IMG/VR virus record: IMGVR_UViG_3300035698_022672
Span: 1 to 34,425 of that record
Reading direction: 5' to 3' (one strand)
DNA: 34,425 nt
DNA from: a virus
Both the position numbers and the translations under genes were made by a program. Shown here piece after piece: positions 22,206 through 34,425 of this stretch. A model generated the notes under the pieces. That model made no database searches, had not been told where the DNA came from, and saw only the letters and a list, made by a program, of their open reading frames with translations. Every line of letters starts with the position of its first letter. The stretch's first letter is position 1.

Positions 22206-23951
22206 TTACGATGGAAATGTTGCTCCAGTTGGTAAAACATTGAAATCTAGTAAAATAAATTCTGCTGTTTTAGTTGGCTGTAAGAATAACTGTCCTATTA
22301 ACTCGTTTCTATCTATTACATCTGGTGTATTATTAGATTCGTCCATTACAACTTTAAAGGCATATAATCCTTGTCTTTGTTGAACGTTTTCTAAATATGG
22401 ATTAACTTGTGTTAAGAAATTATTTCTTGTTGCTATTGTATTTTGTTCAAATACTAAATTATCAGCAATTTGAGATATATAATCTTTAAGTGTTATCAAT
22501 AATCTACGTACATTTATTCTATCAAGTGCAGAAGCGGCTTTTTGTAATGTTTTCTGACCAAATACTACAACACCTTGATTGGGGAAGGTAGCTATTGGAT
22601 TTATGTTTGCTTCGTATAAAGTATCTCTATTTCCAGAAGTTAATTTTCTTTCAGCTCTAACTACTTGCCCCATTCCTCCCCTAGTAATACCTGCGGGTGC
22701 GAACCATGGATCACTTGAAGCATCTGTAAATGCATATATTCCAGGAATAAACGTTGAAGCTGGTATGTAAACTAACATTCCAGTGTTTGGATCAACTGTT
22801 TGTAACCATGGCCAATATGTGGATGTATAGCTATTATCAATACCCGCTACTTGTGTCGTCACTGCAGATATTGCGGCACCATAAGGTACCATATCAACTA
22901 CGGCAATGTTATCACCACGTGAAATGGCATTGTTCATTAAACTAGTGACTTGTGTTGCATGTTTTGAGTTTAATAAACCGGGTGCATAAATTACATTATA
23001 TTGGTAATCGTCTTGATTGGCTAATAAAGCAATTGCATCTGTATAGTCAGTTCCTATTAAACCCTGTGTTTGTAATCCGATTGCTTCATAAAATTTATTA
23101 GCTCCACCTGTCATTATATTACTTCCAACACCAGTACCAAAAACACCTTGTGCACTACCTGACCCGGCTGCTGGTAAACTACCAGTAAACTCGTTTTTAG
23201 CAGAACCATCGTTATTAAAATAATGAGGGGTTGGGAAATTTACTTGTTTTACTCTTACATAAGAAGAGATATTAGGGTGAGATCCTGATTCTTGTAAATA
23301 TGTTGAACCATCTAGAGTTATTACTGTTGTTGATACGTCACCAATTGCTCTTGAAATATAATTAGGTGCAAATGGATCTAATGAAATATTATTGTAGTTT
23401 TCTAAAATAACTTTATTATTTTGAGTATCATTTCCTCGTCTAATTAATAATGAAAATACACCTGATGATGAGTTTACACTTGCGATTTCCCATCTAAAGT
23501 TATCAGATGATCCAGATAATAATGAATTATTAGACCCAGACGGTCCACTACTATTCATTAAGTCTCCTTGTGATATTGTTTCTAATACAAAAGGTGAGGT
23601 ATTAGCAGCACCCGTTCCTTTAGAACCCGTAGGCATCAATGAACTAGTTGCTGATGTCCAATTTGCAGATGATGATACCACACGTGTTACTAACAATGAA
23701 TTACCCCCATTTTGGAAGTATTGATTGGCTGCAATTGAAGTTAGGTAAGTAAATTGACCTGATCCGCTTTCTAGGGCTCCACCAAAAATATTTTGGTAAG
23801 AACTAAATGAGCTAATTAAAGTAGGTCTTTCAACAGGACCCTTAGTTGTTGGTCCTATAATAGCCGCGCCTCTAACAGTTGGTTGAGCGGTAACAAAGGA
23901 TTGATCGTTTTCTCTTGCTAGTACTCCAGGAGATATTAATGTTTCTGCCAT
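22206..23951 (-). CDS. Tail sheath protein, T4 gp18-like
   Basis: The 581-residue protein shows the sheath signature. The N-terminus PGVLARENDQSFVTAQPTVRGAAIIGPTTKGP is followed by the middle variable domain. The conserved C-terminal half contains APAGITRGGMGQVVRAERKL, INPIATFPNQGVVVFGQKTL, LDRINVRRLLITLKDYI and a final strand AEFILLDFNVLP. The sheath contracts to drive the tube through the host envelope, which fixes the phage as a myovirus. About residues 90-270, rich in Ser/Gly/Asn, correspond to the outer protrusion domain, the part most free to vary between phages. Confidence 0.93.
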   Translation of the reverse strand: MAETLISPGVLARENDQSFVTAQPTVRGAAIIGPTTKGPVERPTLISSFSSYQNIFGGALESGSGQFTYLTSIAANQYFQNGGNSLLVTRVVSSSANWTSATSSLMPTGSKGTGAANTSPFVLETISQGDLMNSSGPSGSNNSLLSGSSDNFRWEIASVNSSSGVFSLLIRRGNDTQNNKVILENYNNISLDPFAPNYISRAIGDVSTTVITLDGSTYLQESGSHPNISSYVRVKQVNFPTPHYFNNDGSAKNEFTGSLPAAGSGSAQGVFGTGVGSNIMTGGANKFYEAIGLQTQGLIGTDYTDAIALLANQDDYQYNVIYAPGLLNSKHATQVTSLMNNAISRGDNIAVVDMVPYGAAISAVTTQVAGIDNSYTSTYWPWLQTVDPNTGMLVYIPASTFIPGIYAFTDASSDPWFAPAGITRGGMGQVVRAERKLTSGNRDTLYEANINPIATFPNQGVVVFGQKTLQKAASALDRINVRRLLITLKDYISQIADNLVFEQNTIATRNNFLTQVNPYLENVQQRQGLYAFKVVMDESNNTPDVIDRNELIGQLFLQPTKTAEFILLDFNVLPTGATFPS

Positions 23952-24009: not shown

Positions 24010-24264
24010 CTATTTTGATAGAGTAAATTCTCCATTTTCTAAATTAATACTACCATCACCATATTTATCTTGTAAGGATTTAGCAGTTTTATTAGATTCT
24101 TCTTGTAAATCAGCAAATTTATCTAATATTGTACTTCTTTGACCCTCTAACATGGCTTTCTGGATGTCAACATTACCTAAATTGATTGTAAGTTGGGTTT
24201 GTTTGTTTTGATAATCTCTTAAGTTTTTTAATTCTTCTTCTGATAGTTTAATTTTTTCACTCAT
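24010..24264 (-). CDS. Short coiled-coil protein upstream of sheath
   Basis: The 84-residue product is highly charged with leucine-spaced heptads (LSEEELKNLRDYQNKQTQLTIN; TILDKFADLQEESNKTAKSLQDKYGDG) and ends in a short GEFTLSK strand. It predicts one long coiled coil with no membrane segment. It lies between the sugar cassette and the sheath gene. It could be a small tail-assembly or chaperone protein, but no homologous family can be named. Confidence 0.6.
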   Translation of the reverse strand: MSEKIKLSEEELKNLRDYQNKQTQLTINLGNVDIQKAMLEGQRSTILDKFADLQEESNKTAKSLQDKYGDGSINLENGEFTLSK

Positions 24265-24279
24265 AATTTCTGTTTTTAT

Positions 24280-25218
24280 TTAATTGTTATTGTTTAAGGG
24301 TTTGAAATAATTATATAATTCTAACATATTTCTTAGTTCATCCTTGGATACTACTACCTTACCACTGGTGAACTCTTCTTTATCTCCAGTATCCGTAATA
24401 TCTTTATAATGCATATAAATGGTACCTTCTAATGTTTGACATCGTGGTGCTTCTTCCTTAGATATCATCATTTCATGGATTTTTTCTGATATTCTGGGGA
24501 CTCCGTGTCTATATTGTAACCCAAATTCTTCTTCGTATATTTCAAATAAGTCTTTAACTAAAAATGATTTTAAGTTGGGTATAACATTAAACCCACTAAC
24601 CCCAAGTCCTTTTTCAATCAGATCCATAGCTTCTTCTATTTCAATCATGAAACGAGTCATTTCTTTGGAGTATAGGGTAAGTTGATATTTCTTATTAATA
24701 GAATCCCAAATTAATGGTATAATACTGCCCGTAGAATTCAACACATTGCCATAGATTGCGGTGGATAAACGCACGTTAGATTTTTCGGCATTGACTATGA
24801 ATGACTCACCCGCTACGAATTTCATCGCGCCATATAACGTAGTTGCCGCTCTTGATTTATCGGAAGATATGAAACAAGCGGCTTCAAAATTGTTATCTTC
24901 TGCCGCTCTTCTTGAATTTATAGCCCCATCTATTAAAACTCTAACAGACTCTTCAACGTTTTGATCTACGGCACCTATCTGTTTTAAAGATGCGGCAAAT
25001 ATTCCTATATCATGTCCAAAAGCGGATCTAGTTAATAAATCAAAATTTCTTATATCCCCTATAATACATTTAATATTAGGAAATCTTTTCTTAAGGTAAT
25101 AATGTTTAGCCTCATCTCTTGAGTATACAGTAATCTCATTATCTTTATAATAACGTTCTACTAAGTGAGAGCCTAAATAACCAGCACCTCCTGTTATAAA
25201 TATTTTTTTATTTTTCAT
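24280..25218 (-). CDS. Nucleotide-sugar dehydratase/epimerase, PseB/CapD-like SDR
   Basis: The 312-residue protein is an extended short-chain dehydrogenase. The NAD(P)-binding motif TGGAGYLGS has Gly10/Gly13/Gly16. DIRN near residue 55 is the adenine-binding acidic spot, SSDK is at 118-121 and the catalytic YGAMK has Tyr129 and Lys133. MTRFMIEIEEAMDLI near 185-200 is typical of UDP-GlcNAc 4,6-dehydratases of the PseB/FlaA1/CapD type. It probably makes a 4-keto-6-deoxy sugar nucleotide that the neighbouring methyltransferase could use. Its start overlaps the methyltransferase stop by 4 bases (ATGA). The exact substrate cannot be read from the sequence. Confidence 0.85.
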   Translation of the reverse strand: MKNKKIFITGGAGYLGSHLVERYYKDNEITVYSRDEAKHYYLKKRFPNIKCIIGDIRNFDLLTRSAFGHDIGIFAASLKQIGAVDQNVEESVRVLIDGAINSRRAAEDNNFEAACFISSDKSRAATTLYGAMKFVAGESFIVNAEKSNVRLSTAIYGNVLNSTGSIIPLIWDSINKKYQLTLYSKEMTRFMIEIEEAMDLIEKGLGVSGFNVIPNLKSFLVKDLFEIYEEEFGLQYRHGVPRISEKIHEMMISKEEAPRCQTLEGTIYMHYKDITDTGDKEEFTSGKVVVSKDELRNMLELYNYFKPLNNNN

Positions 25219-26405
25219 CCTACTTGTTTTATTTGGGGGAATGGAATTATATAAGGGATCCCTAAATGTTTCGTTTTATCAATAATCATATCAGAAAAAT
25301 TCCAGGCAAATATTAAAATAAAGTCAACATCAGATTCAATAGCTTCGGGGGGTAAAATTTTAATTTTACCGTTTGATGTAAATCTATTATATCTTTCTGG
25401 GGATTCATCTATTATATACTTAATATCATTACTATCTAAATCTAATGTTCCTATTACAGTATTTGCTCTACCTGATGCTCCATATCCTATTATTTTTTTA
25501 TCTTTATTATCTTTTAGGAATTGTTTTAATTCACTTAATGATTTTTCAATAGATGAAGTAAAATTGCACAAACTATGATAATCTTTTTCAGATTCTATTA
25601 ACTCTTCAACTTTTTTATTAGGTATTAGAGATTTATCTTTAGTTGCTGTTACCCTAATAGACCCTGAATGTATCGGGATTCTTGTAAAGTCAATTATTGT
25701 TAATCCATGGTTTGCTAATAAATGTTTTAAGCTAGTTAGTGTGTAGTAGTATAAATGTTCATGATACATAAAATCGAATTGAAATTTATCTACTAAATCT
25801 ATTAAATATTGTACTTCAAATATAAATTTACCATCTTCTTTTAAGGAAAACTCAACTGCCTTTACTACTGAGTTTATATCCGTAATGTGTGCGAAGGTGT
25901 TGCTTGCTAGAATGTAGTCGAATTTATTATCCCAATTAAGATTACTAACGAATTCATAATTGAAGAAATCATTAACTAGGTTTAATCCTTTTTTTCTACC
26001 TAGTTTTACTATGTTAGTAGCGGGGTCAATCCCTACAGTATTACGTATGCCTTTTTTGTTTAAAGCATCTAATAAAGGGCCATCGTTGCATCCAAATTCT
26101 AATATTTGTGAATCCGGGGTTATTTTCTCTTCAGTTATTAACCAATCTGCGTATTGGTTAAAATGTTTTTGCATACCTACAGAGGAAACATACCTATAGT
26201 CTTTAAATAAAACTTCTGGTTCTATTAAGGTGTCTGTTTGTACCAATTTACAATTGGGGCATGTTATAATGGCTAAGGGGTAACGGATAATTTTATCTTT
26301 ATCTTGTTCCAATGGGAAACTACCAGCTAAGGGTATTTCTCCAAAGTCATACAAGGTATTAAACTTCTTCCCACCACAACACGCACATTTATTCCTTTTA
26401 GTCAT
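25215..26405 (-). CDS. Sugar C-methyltransferase (zinc-binding, SAM-dependent)
   Basis: The 396-residue protein has the three-part layout of NovU/TylCIII-type deoxysugar C-methyltransferases. An N-terminal zinc domain has Cys7/Cys10 and a second CPNC pair, with the typical DFGEIPLAGSFP and LVQTDTLIEPEVLFKDYRYVSS segments. A SAM-binding Rossmann domain carries ILEFGCNDGPLL at about 100-111. The C-terminal domain contains IIGYGASGRANTV. Such enzymes methylate C3 of nucleotide-linked 4-keto sugars, which fits translational coupling to the dehydratase. Together they point to a branched-chain or modified deoxysugar precursor. The gene is 12 bases from the preceding glycosyltransferase. Confidence 0.88.
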   Translation of the reverse strand: MTKRNKCACCGGKKFNTLYDFGEIPLAGSFPLEQDKDKIIRYPLAIITCPNCKLVQTDTLIEPEVLFKDYRYVSSVGMQKHFNQYADWLITEEKITPDSQILEFGCNDGPLLDALNKKGIRNTVGIDPATNIVKLGRKKGLNLVNDFFNYEFVSNLNWDNKFDYILASNTFAHITDINSVVKAVEFSLKEDGKFIFEVQYLIDLVDKFQFDFMYHEHLYYYTLTSLKHLLANHGLTIIDFTRIPIHSGSIRVTATKDKSLIPNKKVEELIESEKDYHSLCNFTSSIEKSLSELKQFLKDNKDKKIIGYGASGRANTVIGTLDLDSNDIKYIIDESPERYNRFTSNGKIKILPPEAIESDVDFILIFAWNFSDMIIDKTKHLGIPYIIPFPQIKQVG

Positions 26406-26417
26406 AATTTTTTATTA

Positions 26418-27335
26418 TTAATAAGATATCGCAGTTGGTCTATCTGTAATTAGTAGATGGTTTATATTTACTAGTTTATTATTGGAATCATAATAACTAA
26501 GGGAAGTCATTGGTTTTTTAAGTTTAGTATTTTTATTAATCATTATGTCTTCACCATCAATATTAAATTTTATATCCTTTATTAACCCGTATAATATAAT
26601 GAAACTTTTATCAAAAAACAACCTAAAATAATTATTTTCTGTATTAAAATTCCACAAATGGGTATCTTTTATAAAATTAAATTCTAAACTATCCTCTACA
26701 ACTTCTTTAAATACTTTAAATTCAATATCTTTTAATAAATATTTCAAATAAGCTTCAGGAGGAGTCATTTCCCCGGATATTAAAAAATTAGTTTTGGAAA
26801 TGTATTCTTTCCTATCAATGGAAGAAGTGATTTTATTAAAATCTTGTTTAGTAAAAGAGAAAAACAGTAAATTAGGTGAATATTCATTATGGTCTTTTTT
26901 CCATTTAACCTTACTTACTATATTACCTTTAATATTTGAAAATTCTTCAATCATATTAGGGGTTATTTTAATATCGTAATTAATAAATGTAAAATTATCA
27001 TATTCTAATTCTTTACAAAAGGCACCTATTTTTTTTATTTGATTATAAGGGGTAAAACCATAATCAGGGAGTAATTCATCTAGACTAGTAAAGGTATCAC
27101 CAATAAGGATGGATTTCCAATAAACTAGTGCTTTTTCAGGAAATTCCAATATAGGATTACTTTTATCATAAATAAAATAATTCACGGAGGTTGTTATTTT
27201 ATCATCTAGTGGGATGTGTGAAGCCAACAATATATCAAACCCACATTCCTTTAGGATATGGATATTATTCTCCAAAGCTACTAATTTTTCATTGCTATCG
27301 CAATGACTTAATATACAAGCTAAATTATTAATCAT
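26418..27335 (-). CDS. Glycosyltransferase-like protein (paralogue of neighbour)
   Basis: The 305-residue product begins with LACILSHCDSNEKLVALENNIHILK and FDILLASHIPLDDKIT, then YFIYDKSNPI. It also has GFTPYNQIKKIGAFCKELEYDNFTFINYDIKI, where INYDI may be the metal-binding strand end of a GT-A-like fold. The same three blocks occur in the next gene, so the two are tandem paralogues (DILLFSHYPIEED-type core). No classic DxD motif is present, and the C-terminal part is divergent. It is probably a transferase of the sugar cassette. Donor and acceptor are unknown. It overlaps the neighbouring stop by 8 bases. Confidence 0.68.
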   Translation of the reverse strand: MINNLACILSHCDSNEKLVALENNIHILKECGFDILLASHIPLDDKITTSVNYFIYDKSNPILEFPEKALVYWKSILIGDTFTSLDELLPDYGFTPYNQIKKIGAFCKELEYDNFTFINYDIKITPNMIEEFSNIKGNIVSKVKWKKDHNEYSPNLLFFSFTKQDFNKITSSIDRKEYISKTNFLISGEMTPPEAYLKYLLKDIEFKVFKEVVEDSLEFNFIKDTHLWNFNTENNYFRLFFDKSFIILYGLIKDIKFNIDGEDIMINKNTKLKKPMTSLSYYDSNNKLVNINHLLITDRPTAISY

Positions 27336-28359
27336 TATGTGCTATTTCAATTGATGATATTCTGTTTAATATAAGTAAATCCTTTGGAATTTCCCAGCCA
27401 TCAATCACAACTTTTACATCTTCGGGTCTTTTTGAAAATTGTTGGTGGTTTATAGGTAAATAAATAATATGGTATTCTGATTCTTTAGGTATAAATGATT
27501 TGTTGATTAATTTATTTTTGATGAATATCTCAACATCCAAGTCTTTATTCATGCCCCACAACATTAGTAGTTGTTTGTTTGTATCCTTTCTTTTATTTTT
27601 TATGTAAAGGAGTTCATGCCCTATAAACCAATTAAAATCTTCTTCAGAAAATCTATCCATTATATTACCTTCCATTACAATAGTTGTTCTAATTTTACTA
27701 TTGAAAGGATCGGGACCTTCCCATTCTATTCTGGGAATTGGTTTACTATTTTTTCCATTAAGTTTAGAATACAAATATTCTTCGACAATGCCCTCTCCTA
27801 TGGATTTAACATAATCTTCTTTTGAAATATCTTTTATATTATTAAGATAGGGTTTGATCTTTAAAGCAAACCAGGCCATATATAATCCTTTATCACTCCC
27901 GTATATTGGGAGTATGCTATCATATTCTAACATAAGTTTGTCAAAATCATCTACCATCTTATCATATACCTCTAAATCATAATTTAATACAAATACTTCT
28001 TCATACCCATTTTCATAGGCGAACAATATTCCTCTTTTGATTTGTTGGGCGGCGGCATACCCGTAATCAACAGCGTGTGTATTAATTTTAAAGGGTATTC
28101 CGTTTTTAATGAATTTACTCCAATTTACCATAGATCGAGAACCCCCACCAGGTAAAATATGGTTATTAAATACCGGGTTACTATAATCGTATATAGAATA
28201 ATCCGTTAAATGGTAAGTATCTTCTTCAATGGGGTAATGGGAAAATAAAATTATATCAGTATCATATTTTTTAAGGTTTTTTAAGGTATCATTTAATGCT
28301 TTTTTCTTTGTAGGGTTGTTACAATAAGCAGTAACTAAGAAACAACGTTTATTTGTCAT
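27328..28359 (-). CDS. Glycosyltransferase-like protein (paralogue of neighbour)
   Basis: The 343-residue product shares with the downstream gene the segments CFLVTAYCNNPTKKKALNDTL, DTDIILFSHYPIEEDTYHLTDYSIYDYSNPV, and YGYAAAQQIKRGILFAYENGYEEVFVLNYDLEV. The last resembles a GT-A metal/donor-binding strand (NYDLEV). A WFALKIKPYL and WEGPDPF region follows in the middle, and the C-terminal ~100 residues may be a beta domain. I read it as a glycosyltransferase of the phage sugar cassette, with low certainty on the catalytic mechanism. The start at 28359 overlaps the preceding gene by 11 bases, which suggests coupled translation. Confidence 0.7.
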   Translation of the reverse strand: MTNKRCFLVTAYCNNPTKKKALNDTLKNLKKYDTDIILFSHYPIEEDTYHLTDYSIYDYSNPVFNNHILPGGGSRSMVNWSKFIKNGIPFKINTHAVDYGYAAAQQIKRGILFAYENGYEEVFVLNYDLEVYDKMVDDFDKLMLEYDSILPIYGSDKGLYMAWFALKIKPYLNNIKDISKEDYVKSIGEGIVEEYLYSKLNGKNSKPIPRIEWEGPDPFNSKIRTTIVMEGNIMDRFSEEDFNWFIGHELLYIKNKRKDTNKQLLMLWGMNKDLDVEIFIKNKLINKSFIPKESEYHIIYLPINHQQFSKRPEDVKVVIDGWEIPKDLLILNRISSIEIAHND

Positions 28360-29734
28360 AACAGGCTATATATGGTGTTTTATCTTTATTTGGTGAATAT
28401 TTTTTTATTGATTCAAATTCAATATAATTTGTGTTTCTATTATTACTTTTGAACCAATCCCCATTATTAGTTAATAATTGGGATATTATAGAGTGTTCGG
28501 ATTTATACAATGTAAGTAATTTTTCCTTAATATCCAAAATATCCTTATCTAACTTAATATCTGATTTACCGAATACGTGGAAATTATTTGTTAGCTTTTT
28601 TATAGTATCAAAGACTAATTTATGTTGTGGGTGACCATATTCACCAATGGGGTTATGAGTAACAACCATCTCCCAATTTTTAGAATTAATAATACCACTT
28701 AAATCATATTCTTCTGTTGGGTTTAATGTATCTTCATAATCTAACATTTCCCAAGAACCTACATTAAGTTCTTTCATTACAGATTCGAATTCATATTTTC
28801 TGGTTGTATTAGAGTTGTTGGTCAAACATACAACCTTATATTCTGGTCCGTGGTTTATTAATTCGGCCCCCCCAAATATTAATTCATCATCGGGGTGTGC
28901 CACTATCATTAATCGGGTTGTTGAGTAATCTTTAAAAGCATTTAGTAAAGTTAATGCGTTTTTTGGTTTTACAGAAGGATCTGGACCATGTATGAAATAG
29001 GGTTTTAATGATAATTTGTCGTACATTACATCAAATCCTTGTTTTAGGAAATAAGAATTAACAACTCTTTCCTCTTTTGAGCTATAATAATTATTCCAAG
29101 TAATAGGTAGATCTAATATTTTATTTTCCTCCCATAATATATTATTAGCTACTCTTTCTTCAGAAAAGGCGTTATCATCCACGTAGTCTTTAATACTATG
29201 TTTATTTAACTCTTTATTCCATTCTAAACATTTTTTAAAGAAGGGTATGCTTTTAACATCATAGAAATAAAAACCGGTGGCTATTAATTTATTATTAGGG
29301 TTTCTTTTTATACCCTTAATAGAAGACAATTCATTACCATAATTCCCTTCTAACTTTACATCATTATAATATCTCCATTGGTTTATATCCTGATGGTAAT
29401 ATTTCATGAATAAAGGGTAGTCTTGCAAACCATCAAGATATTGTAATGAGGCATCAATATTTTCAGTAACAAAGGCATCACCATCAACCCAAGCAAATTT
29501 TGTAAAATCTTCATTTAAAGACTCTATCGAGGCTAAATACTTAGCAAAGTAAATGGAATAATCTTTTTTGATTAAATCGGGTTCTTGTGTGGGATTTAAT
29601 GTAGGTTTAGGTGTATAATCGATTCTTCTATTAAGGACATTAGGTAAGTTTATGTTAGGGTCACAATTGAAACCATACACTATAAGTTTATAGTTAGAAT
29701 ATAATAATAAACTTTTAGCTAATACTTCTATCAT
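28349..29734 (-). CDS. GT-A glycosyltransferase fused to PIG-L/LmbE deacetylase
   Basis: From the ATG at 29734 the product has 461 residues. The N-terminal part is a GT-A-type transferase with the DxD-like AWVDGDAFV (Asp84/Asp86). From about residue 272 it is a PIG-L/LmbE N-deacetylase: AHPDDE (His280, Asp283) and GEYGHPQHK (His368, His371) would bind zinc. The fusion could transfer and then de-N-acetylate an amino sugar. The start is doubtful. The same frame continues upstream, without a start codon, as VNFTWITGGDKSYLP back to the A11 run at 29780-29790. That sequence looks like the first beta strand of the GT fold, and a hairpin sits directly before the ATG. Production as an extension of the upstream protein is likely. 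Confidence 0.8.
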   Translation of the reverse strand: MIEVLAKSLLLYSNYKLIVYGFNCDPNINLPNVLNRRIDYTPKPTLNPTQEPDLIKKDYSIYFAKYLASIESLNEDFTKFAWVDGDAFVTENIDASLQYLDGLQDYPLFMKYYHQDINQWRYYNDVKLEGNYGNELSSIKGIKRNPNNKLIATGFYFYDVKSIPFFKKCLEWNKELNKHSIKDYVDDNAFSEERVANNILWEENKILDLPITWNNYYSSKEERVVNSYFLKQGFDVMYDKLSLKPYFIHGPDPSVKPKNALTLLNAFKDYSTTRLMIVAHPDDELIFGGAELINHGPEYKVVCLTNNSNTTRKYEFESVMKELNVGSWEMLDYEDTLNPTEEYDLSGIINSKNWEMVVTHNPIGEYGHPQHKLVFDTIKKLTNNFHVFGKSDIKLDKDILDIKEKLLTLYKSEHSIISQLLTNNGDWFKSNNRNTNYIEFESIKKYSPNKDKTPYIACYDK

Positions 29735-29735
29735 A

Positions 29736-29756
29736 GGGAGATAAGACTTATCCCCC
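29736..29756 (-). other. Strong hairpin directly before ATG 29734
   Basis: On the minus strand GGGGGATAA pairs with TTATCTCCC (nine pairs, one G-T) around a GTC loop, and the ATG follows one base later. In RNA it would block initiation at that ATG, or act as a stimulator 22 bases downstream of the slip site. That spacing is long for a classical -1 stimulator. No T run follows, so it is not a terminator. Confidence 0.6.
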
Positions 29757-29760
29757 CCAG

Positions 29761-32082
29761 TTATCCAAGTAAAGTTAACTTTTTTTTTTTATTTAAAACA
29801 TCTGAAACAGAATTGTAAACTTGATCTACAGAAATAGATTTTTGACATATATGTTGAAGTTCGGTACCTTCGTTTTCTGGGCACCAATCCCAATTTCCGG
29901 CATCAAAAGAATGTTCGGGATGAACCCAACAATTGTTACATACCGAGTGGTTTTCGATTTTGGTTAAATTGTGAGTAAATTCAAAACCATGAGGAATGAA
30001 ATTATTAATCATTAGAGTATGTTTGTCCAATACCCAATTAACCCAAGATAGCCCAGATCCTAGTCCTATAAATAAATCTGCATGGTAAAGATGGTTTAAG
30101 GTGTCTTCCCATTTTAAATTCTTTTTATCTATTATATTTTTACCCTTAAATCCTTCTTGGGATAGGTTTATTATCTTATATCCTTCATTACGTAATCGGT
30201 TAGCTAACTCTCCCCACCTATCATGAGGCCATTCTTTTAAACCTGAGGTTGCTCTAGGTCCTATACATACATATTTTCCCTTAATTGGTGATTTTTTAGG
30301 TTTAAAATTAATATCGTAATGAATTTCTTTATATGGTAGACCTAAGATATCGGTTGCAGTTTGAATTAGGGGGATGGTGTTTACTTGATTTGGGTGGTCA
30401 TCAAAATTTTTCCATGAATTATTTGGACCCCTGAACCATCCTATTTTATATGATACATAAACCTCGTGGTGGGTTTCGGGTTTGCTAAATTTAATATTTT
30501 TATATTGTGGGAGGGTTTCAAACCATTCATTATGAAAAGTACTTACAATTACCTCACACTTATGTTTTTTATAAAATTCTAAGACTTGTGGAACCCATGC
30601 TATTGTATCCCCAACAGATTTAGAATCTAAATTTATTAAAACTTTTTTATTATTTAAATCAAAAGTATGTACCACTACCCCATTTACTTTTATTACCCAT
30701 GGAATATAGTAAGATTTACTACATTTAGTCCACATATTAGTATTAATTGTGGATGAATACACAACCTTATTGGTTGAACCATCTATAAATTCTATAAGAT
30801 ATTCTTTATGTGTAGAACCTTTAACTTCTACTTTAGGACCAAAATTAAAACTAATTTCTATTTTATTTGGAGGGATGTTTTCCATAAGATTATCTATTTC
30901 CTTTTTAGCTAATTTTGCGGAATTTTCCCAAGTAAAATCCTTTCTGATTAATTTTGATTCTATTAGTGATTTTTCTTTATGGTGGTCATAATTTTCATAT
31001 GAATCTCTCATAACTTTCTTTAAGTCTTCATAATCAGGTACATAAAATTCTCCCGTCATCTCAGATTGAGAGTATGTACTATATTCACCCATAATAGCGG
31101 GAATAGTACCTTTAATTTTTACAGGTAAACCTTTACCTTCAGCAAATTCTAATTGTGCACTACATTCTGAGTATATAGAAGGGGTACCACATGCCATAGC
31201 TTCTATTAAGGGTAAATTCCATCCCTCAGAGCGAGCACAAGATAAAAATACATGGCCCTTTTGTAAATATTTTATGTATTCGTCTCTAGTAGGAAAATGT
31301 TTTATTTTGATTCTAGGGTCTTTTAAATTATAATGATCTAGTCTTTCTTCAGTAGATTTAAATCCATCTTTGGCAAATCCATTATCTATAGATAAAACTA
31401 AATCAATAGGTTCGTCTTTATTAAATTCTTGTAAGAACGATTCTATTATTTCTTTTGTTGATTTTCGAAAATCCCACCTACCAAACATTATAAATTTAAA
31501 TCTATTATCCTCATATTCGGGTAATGTAACTTGGTCATTAGGATGAAAGGTATTCCCATTAACAGCTTCAGGTATTACTTTTACTTTGTTTGGATCCATT
31601 CCCTGTTCTATAGAGCAATTTCTTTGCCATTTTGAAGGAACCCATACTTGATCGTATTCATTTAAAACCTTAAAGAAAGAATCTGGATATCTGGTTGTTT
31701 CCCAAACAGTGTATCCAATTTTAGGACCTATATAAGATTGGTAGAAGTAATGGTGGTTAACTTCAGATAAAATTATATTGAGGTTATGATTAAAATAGTT
31801 GGGGTAATTAGGATATATATCATGATCCATTAAAGTAAGGGGATCATTAGATTCTATAAGGGTTTGTTGAGTTAGAAGTTTTTTATCTAGATCTGCTAGA
31901 TAATATTCACCATTAAAGGGCTCATCACTCAAACCATCCCACGTAAGGGGTACAGTGAAGTTTCTAACTTTCAAATCGTAGAGTTTGGAAAGTTCTTTAA
32001 AAAAATCTCTAGTATGGTTGTTATAACCCGTAGTTCCTATATAACTACCATGGGTAAAAATTTTAGTTTGGTTTTTTTGCAT
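29761..32082 (-). CDS. Two-domain glycosyltransferase: GT4 plus TibC-like O-heptosyltransferase
   Basis: The 773-residue protein has an N-terminal GT-B domain of the GT4 type. It contains VIPEAVNGNTFHP, then FIMFGRWDFRKSTKEIIESF, then the EX7E motif SEGWNLPLIEAMACG with Glu286 and Glu294. From about residue 410 it matches the autotransporter heptosyltransferase (BAHT/TibC) pattern: HKEYLIEFIDGSTNKVVY, NLDSKSVGDTIAWVPQVLEFY, FIGLGSGLSWVNWVL, and the cysteine cluster CNNCW, WDWC and HICQ (Cys715, 718, 734, 746). In TibC this cluster binds iron. TibC-type enzymes put heptose on serines of repetitive adhesins. The C-terminus ends in four lysines at the A11 slip site. Confidence 0.87.
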   Translation of the reverse strand: MQKNQTKIFTHGSYIGTTGYNNHTRDFFKELSKLYDLKVRNFTVPLTWDGLSDEPFNGEYYLADLDKKLLTQQTLIESNDPLTLMDHDIYPNYPNYFNHNLNIILSEVNHHYFYQSYIGPKIGYTVWETTRYPDSFFKVLNEYDQVWVPSKWQRNCSIEQGMDPNKVKVIPEAVNGNTFHPNDQVTLPEYEDNRFKFIMFGRWDFRKSTKEIIESFLQEFNKDEPIDLVLSIDNGFAKDGFKSTEERLDHYNLKDPRIKIKHFPTRDEYIKYLQKGHVFLSCARSEGWNLPLIEAMACGTPSIYSECSAQLEFAEGKGLPVKIKGTIPAIMGEYSTYSQSEMTGEFYVPDYEDLKKVMRDSYENYDHHKEKSLIESKLIRKDFTWENSAKLAKKEIDNLMENIPPNKIEISFNFGPKVEVKGSTHKEYLIEFIDGSTNKVVYSSTINTNMWTKCSKSYYIPWVIKVNGVVVHTFDLNNKKVLINLDSKSVGDTIAWVPQVLEFYKKHKCEVIVSTFHNEWFETLPQYKNIKFSKPETHHEVYVSYKIGWFRGPNNSWKNFDDHPNQVNTIPLIQTATDILGLPYKEIHYDINFKPKKSPIKGKYVCIGPRATSGLKEWPHDRWGELANRLRNEGYKIINLSQEGFKGKNIIDKKNLKWEDTLNHLYHADLFIGLGSGLSWVNWVLDKHTLMINNFIPHGFEFTHNLTKIENHSVCNNCWVHPEHSFDAGNWDWCPENEGTELQHICQKSISVDQVYNSVSDVLNKKKKLTLLG
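29779..29790 (-). other. A11 run with A_AAA_AAG slip site
   Basis: The end of the 773-residue gene reads AAT AAA AAA AAA AAG TTA on the minus strand. A_AAA_AAG is the most efficient known bacterial -1 slip heptamer (as in E. coli dnaX). A -1 shift here reads on as GTT AAC TTT ACT TGG, exactly the start-less frame of the next glycosyltransferase, and gives a product of 1244 residues. RNA polymerase slippage adding one A, or a missing base in the assembly, would give the same joined frame. Confidence 0.6.
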
Positions 32083-32168
32083 ATTTAAATATTACTATAA
32101 TGTGTAATATACAAAATAATTGTTACCCCCCCAACTAACCTTTAATAATTTATTTTATTATTTTCAAA

Positions 32169-32516
32169 TTAATTACCTACAGTAAGGGCTATGGTTGTTG
32201 GGTTAATTAAGGATTCAAGGATATTGTTGATATTATCCTCTATACTAGTAACTTCTTCAGGTCCCATAGCGGCTTGGGTCCATGCTACTACCTCGGTATT
32301 TGTTACTTGATCAAAGGGTATAAAATTAGTTATATCACTAGTGTTTAGGTCTTGGGTGCCCACCATTGAATATTGGAAGAAGGGTTCGGGGGAATTGGGG
32401 TCTAAAACATCTGAAGTACCCGTTACTACCCAATTTACTTTATACACAACATCAGAATTTCCTGATTGTTCTATGTAGGCTTCTACTGATCTGCAATTCC
32501 AATTATAAGTTACCAT
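32169..32516 (-). CDS. Small phage protein of the tail-fibre region (DUF7936-like)
   Basis: The 115-residue product reads as a beta-strand-rich N-terminal part (VTYNWNCRSVEAYIE; DVVYKVNWVVTGT) followed by FIPFDQVTNTEVVAWTQAAMGPEEVTSIEDNINNILESLINP. This two-part pattern is one I associate with short proteins encoded next to tail fibres in marine phages. The family name is from memory and not verified. The function is unknown. It could be a fibre-associated or structural protein. It has its own 49-base upstream gap, so it is not translationally coupled to the fibre gene. Confidence 0.6.
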   Translation of the reverse strand: MVTYNWNCRSVEAYIEQSGNSDVVYKVNWVVTGTSDVLDPNSPEPFFQYSMVGTQDLNTSDITNFIPFDQVTNTEVVAWTQAAMGPEEVTSIEDNINNILESLINPTTIALTVGN

Positions 32517-32565
32517 AGTTTTTTATTTAATATTTAATATACTTAAATTTATTTGTTATTCCTAG

Positions 32566-34425
32566 TTATTTGCTTTTTAACATTAATTCAACAAGACCTT
32601 CTAACCTTTCAATTTTCTTATCCTGTTCTTTTATGGCTTCAATAAGCAACCCTACCATATTACCATAGGCTACAGAGTATTTACCTTCGTCATCTTGTTG
32701 TACTACTTCAGGAAGTATTTCTAGTACTTCTTGAGCTATAACACCTATACAAGTTGACTTATCTTCTATGTCATTTCTGGTGTATGAGACACCCCTTAAT
32801 TTTGTTACTTTATCTAAGGCATTATCAATTGTTTCAACATTGTCTTTTACTCTAGCATCAGAATATGCAATCACATCTCCTGTTGCTCTAATAGTTCCAT
32901 TAACGTCTAAGGCATAAGTTGCTGGTGCAGTTGTACTACTCTCTCCGTATCCAATTCTTGTGTAACTAGCTACATTTAATCTACCATCAGTAGTTAAAGA
33001 CATTGCTCCTTGAGCATTTGTATGACCAGCATCTCCCCACCAAAAACCTCTATTAGAACTATTATCCATCTGGAAAGTCATAGCATAATCACTTAATCCT
33101 CCAAAGGTGTAAGTGGTTCCCATTCCTATACCATAAGTTGTTCCTGACCAAACATTCAATTTAGTTCTGCTGTTAGTATTATTTGATTGAATGCTAGAAT
33201 TATTATAAATAACACCAGAGGTTCTAAATGAACCATTTACATCTAAAGTGTAAGTGGTGTTTGTATTTGCTATTCCTACATTAGTTCCATTATCAAAAAT
33301 AATAGAATTACCTATAGTAGACGCTCCTGTAAATTTAACTACTTTATTTGTTGTTCCTGATACCGTTACCGATGTTCCTGAAGTTCCTGATGAACCTGAA
33401 GAACCTGGGGTTCCTGTTGCTCCCGAGGTTCCTGATGAACCTGAAGAGCCTGAGTTACCTGAGGTTCCTGATGAACCTGAAGAGCCCGAGTTACCTGAGC
33501 TTCCTGAAGAACCTGAGTTACCTGAGCTTCCTGAAGAGCCTGATACACCTGAAGTTCCTGATGAACCTGAAGAACCTGAGTTACCTGAGGTTCCTGATGA
33601 GCCCGAGGTTCCTGATGAGCCCGAGGTTCCTGAGGTACCACTAGTTCCTGAAGATGCTGCGTTTTCTCTATATCCTAACTGACCTGTAGAATTAATTACA
33701 AGAGTTGTATTTTCTGTTGTATAATTAGGTAATGTTTGGTCAAACTGTACAAAATCTGTATCAAATGTTACTTGGTTTGAGGCCGAAACTTCAAATATAG
33801 GAATACCTGATATATCTGCTACTGAAAATAATGTTCCTGTTAAATCATCTGTAATAGAGAATAATTGACCTTGTGAACCTTGTATATCTAATATAGTAGA
33901 ACCTGACCCACTAACTGTTAATAAAGTACCATCAAAAGTTAAATTTGATTCTGCAGTTAATTCTCCTTGAACCCCGGTTGAGGTAGTAACTCGATTATTG
34001 CCTAAATTTGTTATTGTTGCGGTACCACTAGTTCCTGAAGAACCACTGGTTCCTGATGTTCCTGATGAGCCTGAAGTACCCGATGTTCCTGATGTTCCTG
34101 ATGTTCCTGATGTTCCTGAAGAGCCTGACGTTCCTGAAGAGCCACTAGTTCCTGAGGTACCTGATGTACCCGAAGTACCTGATGAGCCTGATGTACCTGA
34201 TGTACCGGATGAGCCACTTGAGCCTGATACCCCTGATGTTCCTGATGATCCACTTGAGCCTGATACCCCTGATGTTCCTGATGATCCACTAACACCCGAA
34301 GTACCTGAAGTCCCACTTGAACCACTTGTTCCTGAAGTACCGGATGAACCTGAAGAACCAGAATTACCTGAAGTTCCTGAAGTTCCTGATGAACCTGATG
34401 TACCCGATGTTCCTGATGTTCCTGA
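32566..34425 (-). CDS. Collagen-like tail fibre with C-terminal S74 self-cleaving chaperone (N-terminus outside window)
   Basis: The frame is open without a stop over 620 codons and runs off the right edge. The TTG at 33159 that could be taken as a start is internal, because in-frame sequence continues upstream (LDVNGSFRTSG). Visible order from the N-terminal side: Gly-X-Y block, a beta domain (NLTFDGTLLTVSG, ILDIQGSQGQLFSITDDL, LFSVADISGIPIFEVSA), a second Gly-X-Y block, a linker, and the S74 intramolecular chaperone. The chaperone has YSDARVKDN (Ser codon 32860-32862, Lys five residues later), CIGVIAQEVLEILPEVV and a final coiled coil. The chaperone trimerises the fibre and then releases itself, removing about 100 residues. 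The fibre probably binds the host surface. Confidence 0.9.
   Translation of the reverse strand, partial: SGTSGTSGTSGSSGTSGTSGNSGSSGSSGTSGTSGSSGTSGTSGVSGSSGTSGVSGSSGSSGTSGVSGSSGSSGTSGTSGSSGTSGTSGTSGTSGSSGTSGSSGTSGTSGTSGTSGTSGSSGTSGTSGSSGTSGTATITNLGNNRVTTSTGVQGELTAESNLTFDGTLLTVSGSGSTILDIQGSQGQLFSITDDLTGTLFSVADISGIPIFEVSASNQVTFDTDFVQFDQTLPNYTTENTTLVINSTGQLGYRENAASSGTSGTSGTSGSSGTSGSSGTSGNSGSSGSSGTSGVSGSSGSSGNSGSSGSSGNSGSSGSSGTSGNSGSSGSSGTSGATGTPGSSGSSGTSGTSVTVSGTTNKVVKFTGASTIGNSIIFDNGTNVGIANTNTTYTLDVNGSFRTSGVIYNNSSIQSNNTNSRTKLNVWSGTTYGIGMGTTYTFGGLSDYAMTFQMDNSSNRGFWWGDAGHTNAQGAMSLTTDGRLNVASYTRIGYGESSTTAPATYALDVNGTIRATGDVIAYSDARVKDNVETIDNALDKVTKLRGVSYTRNDIEDKSTCIGVIAQEVLEILPEVVQQDDEGKYSVAYGNMVGLLIEAIKEQDKKIERLEGLVELMLKSK
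33373..33648 (-). repeat. Collagen-like Gly-X-Y block, C-terminal
   Basis: About 30 consecutive Gly-X-Y triplets, mostly Gly-Thr-Ser and Gly-Ser-Ser with some Gly-Asn-Ser, are encoded by a 9/18-base repeat pattern (TCA GGA ACT TCA GGT). X and Y are almost all Ser or Thr, and proline is nearly absent. The block should form a triple-helical rod in the trimeric fibre. Confidence 0.9.
34024..34425 (-). repeat. Collagen-like Gly-X-Y block, N-terminal, runs off window
   Basis: At least 44 Gly-X-Y triplets continue to the right edge, again dominated by Gly-Thr-Ser and Gly-Ser-Ser, with a few Gly-Val-Ser. The underlying short DNA repeats could recombine, so block length may vary between isolates or be misassembled. 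Confidence 0.9.

Follow-up and report, generated by a model that had tools for sequence, protein, structure and literature searches.

A phage tail-module cassette with a TibC-like domain, proposed to glycosylate the phage's own Ser/Thr-rich collagen-like tail fibre

Our analysis suggests that a phage glycosylates its own collagen-like tail fibre, with a TibC-like domain priming the glycan and the surrounding sugar cassette extending it. We put the probability of this reading at roughly 0.8. An earlier note, made from the DNA alone, had proposed such O-glycosylation of the fibre, and the proposal is now supported by the superposition of the domain on TibC, by the co-occurrence of enzyme and repeats across phages and by gene pairs in bacteria. 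Modification of Gly-(Ser/Thr)-Ser repeats is most likely the function of this TibC-like O-glycosyltransferase subfamily, the repeats being its predicted acceptor. TibC is already known, as is phage-encoded virion glycosylation (Freeman 2023, as cited in PMC12619734). Within the open-access literature (subscription papers and preprints were outside the scope) we found no earlier report that ties TibC-like enzymes to collagen-like repeats.

The window, which is the whole stretch of DNA that was analysed, is a 34.4 kb IMG/VR virus fragment. All genes of the module lie on the minus strand in the list of open reading frames of the window:

32566..34425, minus strand: tail-fibre gene, 5' end beyond the window, S74 chaperone at the C-terminus, proposed glycan acceptor (ORF, Pfam, PHROG)
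32169..32516, minus strand: DUF7936 protein, 115 aa, between fibre and cassette (ORF, Pfam)
30871..32082, minus strand: GT4 domain of the GT4-TibC fusion, residues 1-404, proposed to extend the first sugar (Pfam, alignment, model)
29761..30870, minus strand: TibC-like domain of the GT4-TibC fusion, residues 405-773, proposed protein O-glycosyltransferase (profile, alignment, model)
28349..29734, minus strand: 461-aa GT/PIG-L protein with a C-terminal PIG-L-type de-N-acetylase (ORF, Pfam)
27328..28359, minus strand: 343-aa protein, GT-A-fold glycosyltransferase by model, with a C-terminal beta domain (predicted model)
26418..27335, minus strand: 305-aa protein of the same family as the 343-aa protein (comparison among relatives)
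25215..26405, minus strand: sugar C-methyltransferase (Pfam Methyltransf_13, _23, _14)
24280..25218, minus strand: UDP-GlcNAc 4,6-dehydratase-like enzyme of the PseB/FnlA type (Pfam, NCBIfam; below the equivalog cutoffs)
22206..23951, minus strand: tail sheath (context), 57% identical to that of Flavobacterium phage immuto

The gene order from 5' to 3' is tail fibre, DUF7936 protein, GT4-TibC fusion, GT/PIG-L protein, the two GT-A proteins, C-methyltransferase, dehydratase, an 84-aa protein, tail sheath and tail tube, with the cassette lying between tail fibre and tail sheath. The dehydratase, the C-methyltransferase, the further transferases and the PIG-L deacetylase that had been read from the letters were all recovered in the cassette by profile matches or, for the 343-aa GT-A protein, by model. 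These genes had been placed within 29761-34425, but the cassette runs on to 24280. It had also been described as directly beside the fibre; the two are neighbours, but the DUF7936 gene lies in between. A protein of similar size occupies this slot in the related loci L021 and L022. Phage immuto carries the nearest sheath among 50,697 phage records, and a Bacteroidota host is therefore likely.

The visible part of the fibre ORF comprises 619 aa, which match Pfam Collagen (E 6e-32) and PHROG tail fibre families and end in a Peptidase_S74 chaperone (residues 522-575, E 4e-15, Pfam). Both features of the collagen-like S74 tail-fibre class, Gly-X-Y repeats and a C-terminal Peptidase_S74, are thus present. 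There are 76 Gly-X-Y triplets, 45 of them in a first run (residues 2-136 of the visible part) and 31 in a second (260-352), whereas no run exceeded six triplets in 2000 shuffles that preserved the composition. The repeat fibre described from the letters is therefore real, but the claim of at least 74 Gly-(Thr/Ser)-Ser triplets was an overcount, as the strict number is 64. Serine occupies the Y position in 73 of the 76 triplets and the X position in 28; X and Y positions together are 92% Ser/Thr and include one Pro. We rejected the Pro-Glu-Val-rich frames on the plus strand over the fibre (33254-33682 and 33998-34423), which we read as the mere antisense of the repeat.

The first cassette gene (29761-32082) encodes the GT4-TibC fusion of 773 aa, in which the GT4 domain spans about residues 1-401. 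Its TibC/Aah domain (residues 405-761) scores 209.1 bits against TIGR04414, for which the cutoff is 200 (E 9e-62, NCBIfam), and matches PDB 4rap with an E value of 1.8e-33. A structural check against TibC had been suggested and was run. In an AlphaFold2 model (mean pLDDT 88), residues 406-769 superpose on the TibC crystal structures with Z 39.7 and 1.8 A over 351 residues. TibC numbering was transferred via sequence alignment to the residues discussed in PMC4358343. The catalytic base Asp110 corresponds to D492, Thr226 to T612, Lys230 (phosphate contact) to K616 and Trp305 to W680, while Cys339/342/358/370 correspond to C715/C718/C734/C746, the predicted iron-finger site. The catalytic Asp, the Lys, the Trp and the four Cys are invariant in a 29-row alignment of relatives. 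The TibC/BAHT-type domain with its four-cysteine site was thus correctly recognised, and judging by sequence and model it should work like TibC. In the GT4 half, E286 and E294 (E-x7-E) are both invariant in the alignment of relatives; among solved structures, this half is closest to a glycosyltransferase from a chlorella virus (Z 34.2, 3.0 A, 355 residues).

The heptose part of the same claim found no support, as the position of TibC Arg286 is taken by T661. In TibC, this arginine contacts the adenine of the ADP donor; it is highly conserved in BAHT, and the alanine mutant loses most activity (PMC4358343). Arginine is found at this position in 16 of 88 phage sequences versus 78 of 92 bacterial sequences. 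The replacement makes ADP-heptose doubtful as a donor: the donor of the TibC-like domain may be a different one, and a heptose delivered by ADP-heptose is improbable as the first sugar. Heptose as the default sugar was rejected on two grounds, the replacement of Arg286 and a cassette in which we saw no heptose-pathway gene. A scan of nine window proteins (genes 24010-34425) gave no match to an autotransporter; the partner gene is the collagen-like tail fibre. Since both Arg286 and an autotransporter partner are missing, we did not file the enzyme as a BAHT, although it is predicted to work like one. It shares with TibC/AAH (BAHT; TIGR04414; PDB 4RAP, 4RB4) the fold, the catalytic Asp, the equivalents of Thr226, Lys230 and Trp305, the four-cysteine site and a Ser-rich repetitive partner gene nearby. 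It differs in T661, in the fused GT4 domain and in its partner, which is a Gly-X-Y fibre instead of a beta-helical autotransporter.

In the mechanism that we propose, the TibC domain would act in the infected cell's cytoplasm, before assembly, and attach the first sugar to hydroxyl groups of Ser (or Thr) in the repeats. TibC-type enzymes modify protein serines, and TibC itself serines, not threonines (PMC4358343). Such serine specificity would be satisfied here, because serine fills Y almost throughout and X in those 28 triplets. The fused GT4, both GT-A proteins and the GT/PIG-L protein would extend and N-deacetylate the glycan, while the dehydratase and C-methyltransferase would produce a special nucleotide sugar, a C-methylated deoxysugar. 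The fibre would thus gain a collagen-like shaft that is almost free of proline, densely covered with sugar and trimerised with the help of the S74 chaperone. Glycosylated threonine has been described as stabilising collagen (Bann 2000, as cited in PMC3368898), which fits a shaft with almost no proline; helix stabilisation and shielding of the fibre are both putative roles of the glycan. A more tentative idea, to which we give slightly less than even odds, is that one TibC-like subfamily, present in phages and in some bacteria, is specialised for Gly-(Ser/Thr)-(Ser/Thr) repeats and yields a densely glycosylated, proline-poor collagen-like material whose sugars replace proline/hydroxyproline.

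Adjacency alone is insufficient as proof, since the L008-L020 clade has no Gly-X-Y run within the flank of the enzyme, and whole-record searches were therefore used. Viral contigs were scanned for two DNA patterns, (GGNWSNWSN)x12, which describes twelve Ser/Thr-rich Gly-X-Y triplets, and a Gly-Pro-X control, (GGNCCNNNN)x8; the samples were the longer contigs among the loci listed, 50 per pattern. TIGR04414 was found over cutoff in 20/50 Ser/Thr-rich contigs versus 1/50 Gly-Pro-X contigs (Fisher p 2.4e-6), and the sole control match (L228/G076) carries Ser/Thr-rich runs too. Because the Ser/Thr-rich set has longer contigs, we stratified by length. The enzyme was present in 12/18 versus 0/11 contigs at 60-125 kb (p 4e-4) and in 10/35 versus 1/32 at 25-85 kb (p 0.007). 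In the 25-60 kb stratum alone (4/25 versus 1/22) the difference was not significant, which is expected if short contigs miss genes. Most of the 30 Ser/Thr-rich contigs without a TibC match are fragments.

In the reverse direction, all six contigs of at least 60 kb found only via the enzyme carry Ser/Thr-rich runs, the threshold being eight triplets for G106 and G108 and six for G150, G151, G157 and G159. Such runs were found in 0/11 Gly-Pro-X contigs of at least 60 kb. Enzyme-bearing contigs below 60 kb often have no run. G106 and G108, both near 120 kb, matter because they belong to the L008-L020 clade, which has no Gly-X-Y fibre near the enzyme; their repeats are present elsewhere in the contig. 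A lack of correlation across phages had been named beforehand as a possible refutation of the own-fibre reading, and a correlation was found in both directions. Of the 20 enzyme contigs from the forward test, 13 have a run no more than 10 kb away from the enzyme (distances of 0.5 to 8.6 kb), where 5.6 are expected when the runs of each contig are treated as one randomly placed cluster (simulated p 2e-4); one of these close pairs is in a 548-kb contig. When contigs were chosen by their tail-tube protein, runs were found in 4/8 with and 1/13 without the enzyme (one-sided p 0.047), or in 6/8 and 2/13 with a looser run definition. Shared ancestry or shared ecology may inflate these numbers: phylogenetically independent pairs on the tail-tube tree are few, and relatedness limits all phage co-occurrence counts.

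A similar pairing was observed in bacteria. Scanning species genomes with the single sequence found no relative of the enzyme, while an alignment scan of 84,980 species genomes gave 516 matches, with 78 loci. A Ser/Thr-rich Gly-X-Y open frame lies nearby in 17 of the 19 loci L387-L405 (30-37% identity), three of which (L389, L390, L395) may be phage contigs that were placed in metagenome bins. Most of the partners are small proteins in which a signal peptide or Cys lipobox precedes (GTS)n, (GTA)n or (GSS)n; in gammaproteobacteria their genes lie 4 to 917 bp from the TibC-like gene. At L391, L396, L397, L400 and L403, the small secreted proteins or lipoproteins beside the TibC-like gene consist largely of such repeats. 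In the methanotroph Methylobacter luteus, enzyme and repeat protein genes are likewise neighbours. No Ser/Thr-rich Gly-X-Y frame was found near the classical BAHT-like loci L406-L463, and in a tree of 129 domains the repeat-partner label needs only two changes among bacteria. We also searched six whole genomes of 3.7-5 Mb (G160-G165) with a six-triplet pattern. In five of them (G160, G162, G163, G164, G165) a Gly-(Ser/Thr)-(Ser/Thr/Ala) tract occurs only beside the TibC-like gene, within about 2 kb, and G161 carries a tract of this kind on another contig; other pattern matches in these and in the BAHT-like genomes were Gly-Thr-Gly, Gly-Ser-Gly or unrelated triplets. The bacterial pairs, which the earlier note did not foresee, point to the same putative substrate as in phages.

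These data bear on the other possible targets. The cassette could remodel a host surface polysaccharide (O-chain or capsule) against superinfection and neighbour the fibre as part of a shared host-recognition module. Glycosyltransferases beside tail fibres have been read in this way in pelagimyophages (PMC7029224), and the enzyme set with its dehydratase, C-methyltransferase and several transferases would be suitable for a surface glycan too. However, the acceptors of TibC-type enzymes are serines in proteins (PMC4358343), Pfam and NCBIfam gave no match to a flippase, polymerase or lipid-carrier transferase for any cassette protein, and this explanation predicts neither the link to Ser/Thr repeats in phages nor the bacterial gene pairs. 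We consider it unlikely. Where glycosyltransferases beside the tail fibres of aquatic phages have been read as host O-antigen modifiers (PMC7029224), the pairing points instead to the phage's own fibre, which is directly testable in the cultured phage Mel-JY01 and in methanotrophs such as M. luteus.

Slightly less probable still is that the enzyme mainly glycosylates other virion proteins, such as the sheath, the DUF7936 protein, the capsid or another fibre. The genes do sit between fibre and sheath, the enzyme is not beside repeats in the L008-L020 clade, and mycobacteriophage glycans have been reported on capsid and tail-tube subunits (Freeman 2023, as cited in PMC12619734). Against this, Gly-(Ser/Thr) repeats are the only feature common to the phage and bacterial enzyme neighbourhoods, which sheath and capsid are not, and the two near-120-kb contigs of the non-adjacent clade carry repeats elsewhere. 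Modification of phage DNA bases against host nucleases, as in some T4-like phages, is very improbable. In its favour are the T4-like tail and replication genes of this phage and the common interpretation of phage glycosyltransferases as enzymes of DNA glucosylation (PMC10202952). Against it, the key domain resembles TibC, whose family is known to act on protein, and the genes are part of the tail module and co-occur with a repeat protein.

Glycosylation of the phage's own fibre has parallels in known systems. According to profiles and models the glycosyltransferases are encoded by the phage itself, as in phage-encoded virion glycosylation, and mycobacteriophage enzymes are likewise proposed to modify their own virion; as described in PMC12619734 (citing Freeman 2023), those glycans are on capsid and tail-tube C-termini, unlike the fibre glycan proposed here. 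The E. coli prophage fibres EPcl are also phage-encoded trimeric fibres with collagen-like segments, but have proline-rich X positions (GPK, GPQ, GPA), and the recombinant protein was reported not to be glycosylated (PMC3368898). BclA of Bacillus anthracis spores has a collagen-like region with O-linked sugars (Daubenspeck 2004, as cited in PMC3368898). Set beside the window fibre by description, it is a cellular spore protein and not a phage fibre. The BclA repeats are Gly-Pro-Thr, proline-rich, with an unrelated glycan. If our reading is true, the repeats would be a new acceptor class for TibC-like enzymes, enzyme and repeat protein would form a simple two-gene system for sugar-coated collagen-like polymers, and phages would have a testable way to protect or tune their fibres.

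Comparison among relatives showed that the GT4-TibC fusion is the constant part and that the other cassette genes are accessory, because the L031-L038, L040 lineage carries the enzyme between fibre region and sheath without them. In many relatives GT4-TibC and GT/PIG-L form a single open frame of about 1240 aa; in the window, the N-terminal part of the 461-aa protein has no family match. The 343-aa and 305-aa proteins matched no family in Pfam, NCBIfam or PHROGs. The model of the former resembles mannosylglycerate synthase (Z 13.9, 3.2 A, 169 residues) in a comparison covering residues 1-232 only. Their GT-A family recurs beside TibC-like genes in divergent phages (L369, L366, L371, L379, L314, L228), with three copies in L369 (3761-8403). 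In L042 a member is fused with the TibC protein itself, in L043 with the neighbouring glycosyltransferase.

Some relatives have additional genes between the GTS fibre and GT4-TibC (L022 3837-7502, L031 4954-5571), namely a GT25-family transferase, a PhyH dioxygenase, a methyltransferase or a 2OG-Fe(II) oxygenase. The GT25 family includes collagen galactosyltransferases. Directly upstream of GT4-TibC in L018 (7126-8363) lie APS-kinase-like, HAD and cytidylyltransferase-like genes, a trio that adjoins the enzyme in some relatives. The L018 trio might make a donor for GT4-TibC, a role in ADP-heptose supply being only putative. In the non-adjacent clade, a variable small TGS-rich repeat protein is encoded a few genes upstream (L016 1-339, L010 5663-6046). 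One TibC-like domain (L381 9520-10627) lacks all four iron-finger cysteines and keeps the remainder. Tandem TibC-like copies occur at G047:C1:32334-34281, G027:C1:4622-6558 and G114:C1:20300-22239, the second copy being ~290 aa long and without the N-terminal part.

Among the 50,697 phage records, the TibC domain was found in only four. In the cultured relative immuto we found neither a TibC match nor, within the structural region, a Gly-X-Y run. No GTS repeat was found in the flank of the enzyme in LR756504. In the huge-phage record LR756501, a GTS fibre is divergent from, and ~100 bp upstream of, a glycosyltransferase gene that precedes the TibC protein. LR756503, another of the four records, gave the same coordinates as LR756501. 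The cultured Microcystis phage Mel-JY01 encodes a GT4-GT-methyltransferase-TibC fusion between GTS-repeat frames. Its record (PP395634.1; L042 1-3049) contains a long GTS-repeat collagen-like frame on the plus strand, over which minus-strand genes are annotated (1-651 and 739-2298); gene callers can pick the wrong strand because the antisense of Gly-Thr-Ser repeats also reads open.
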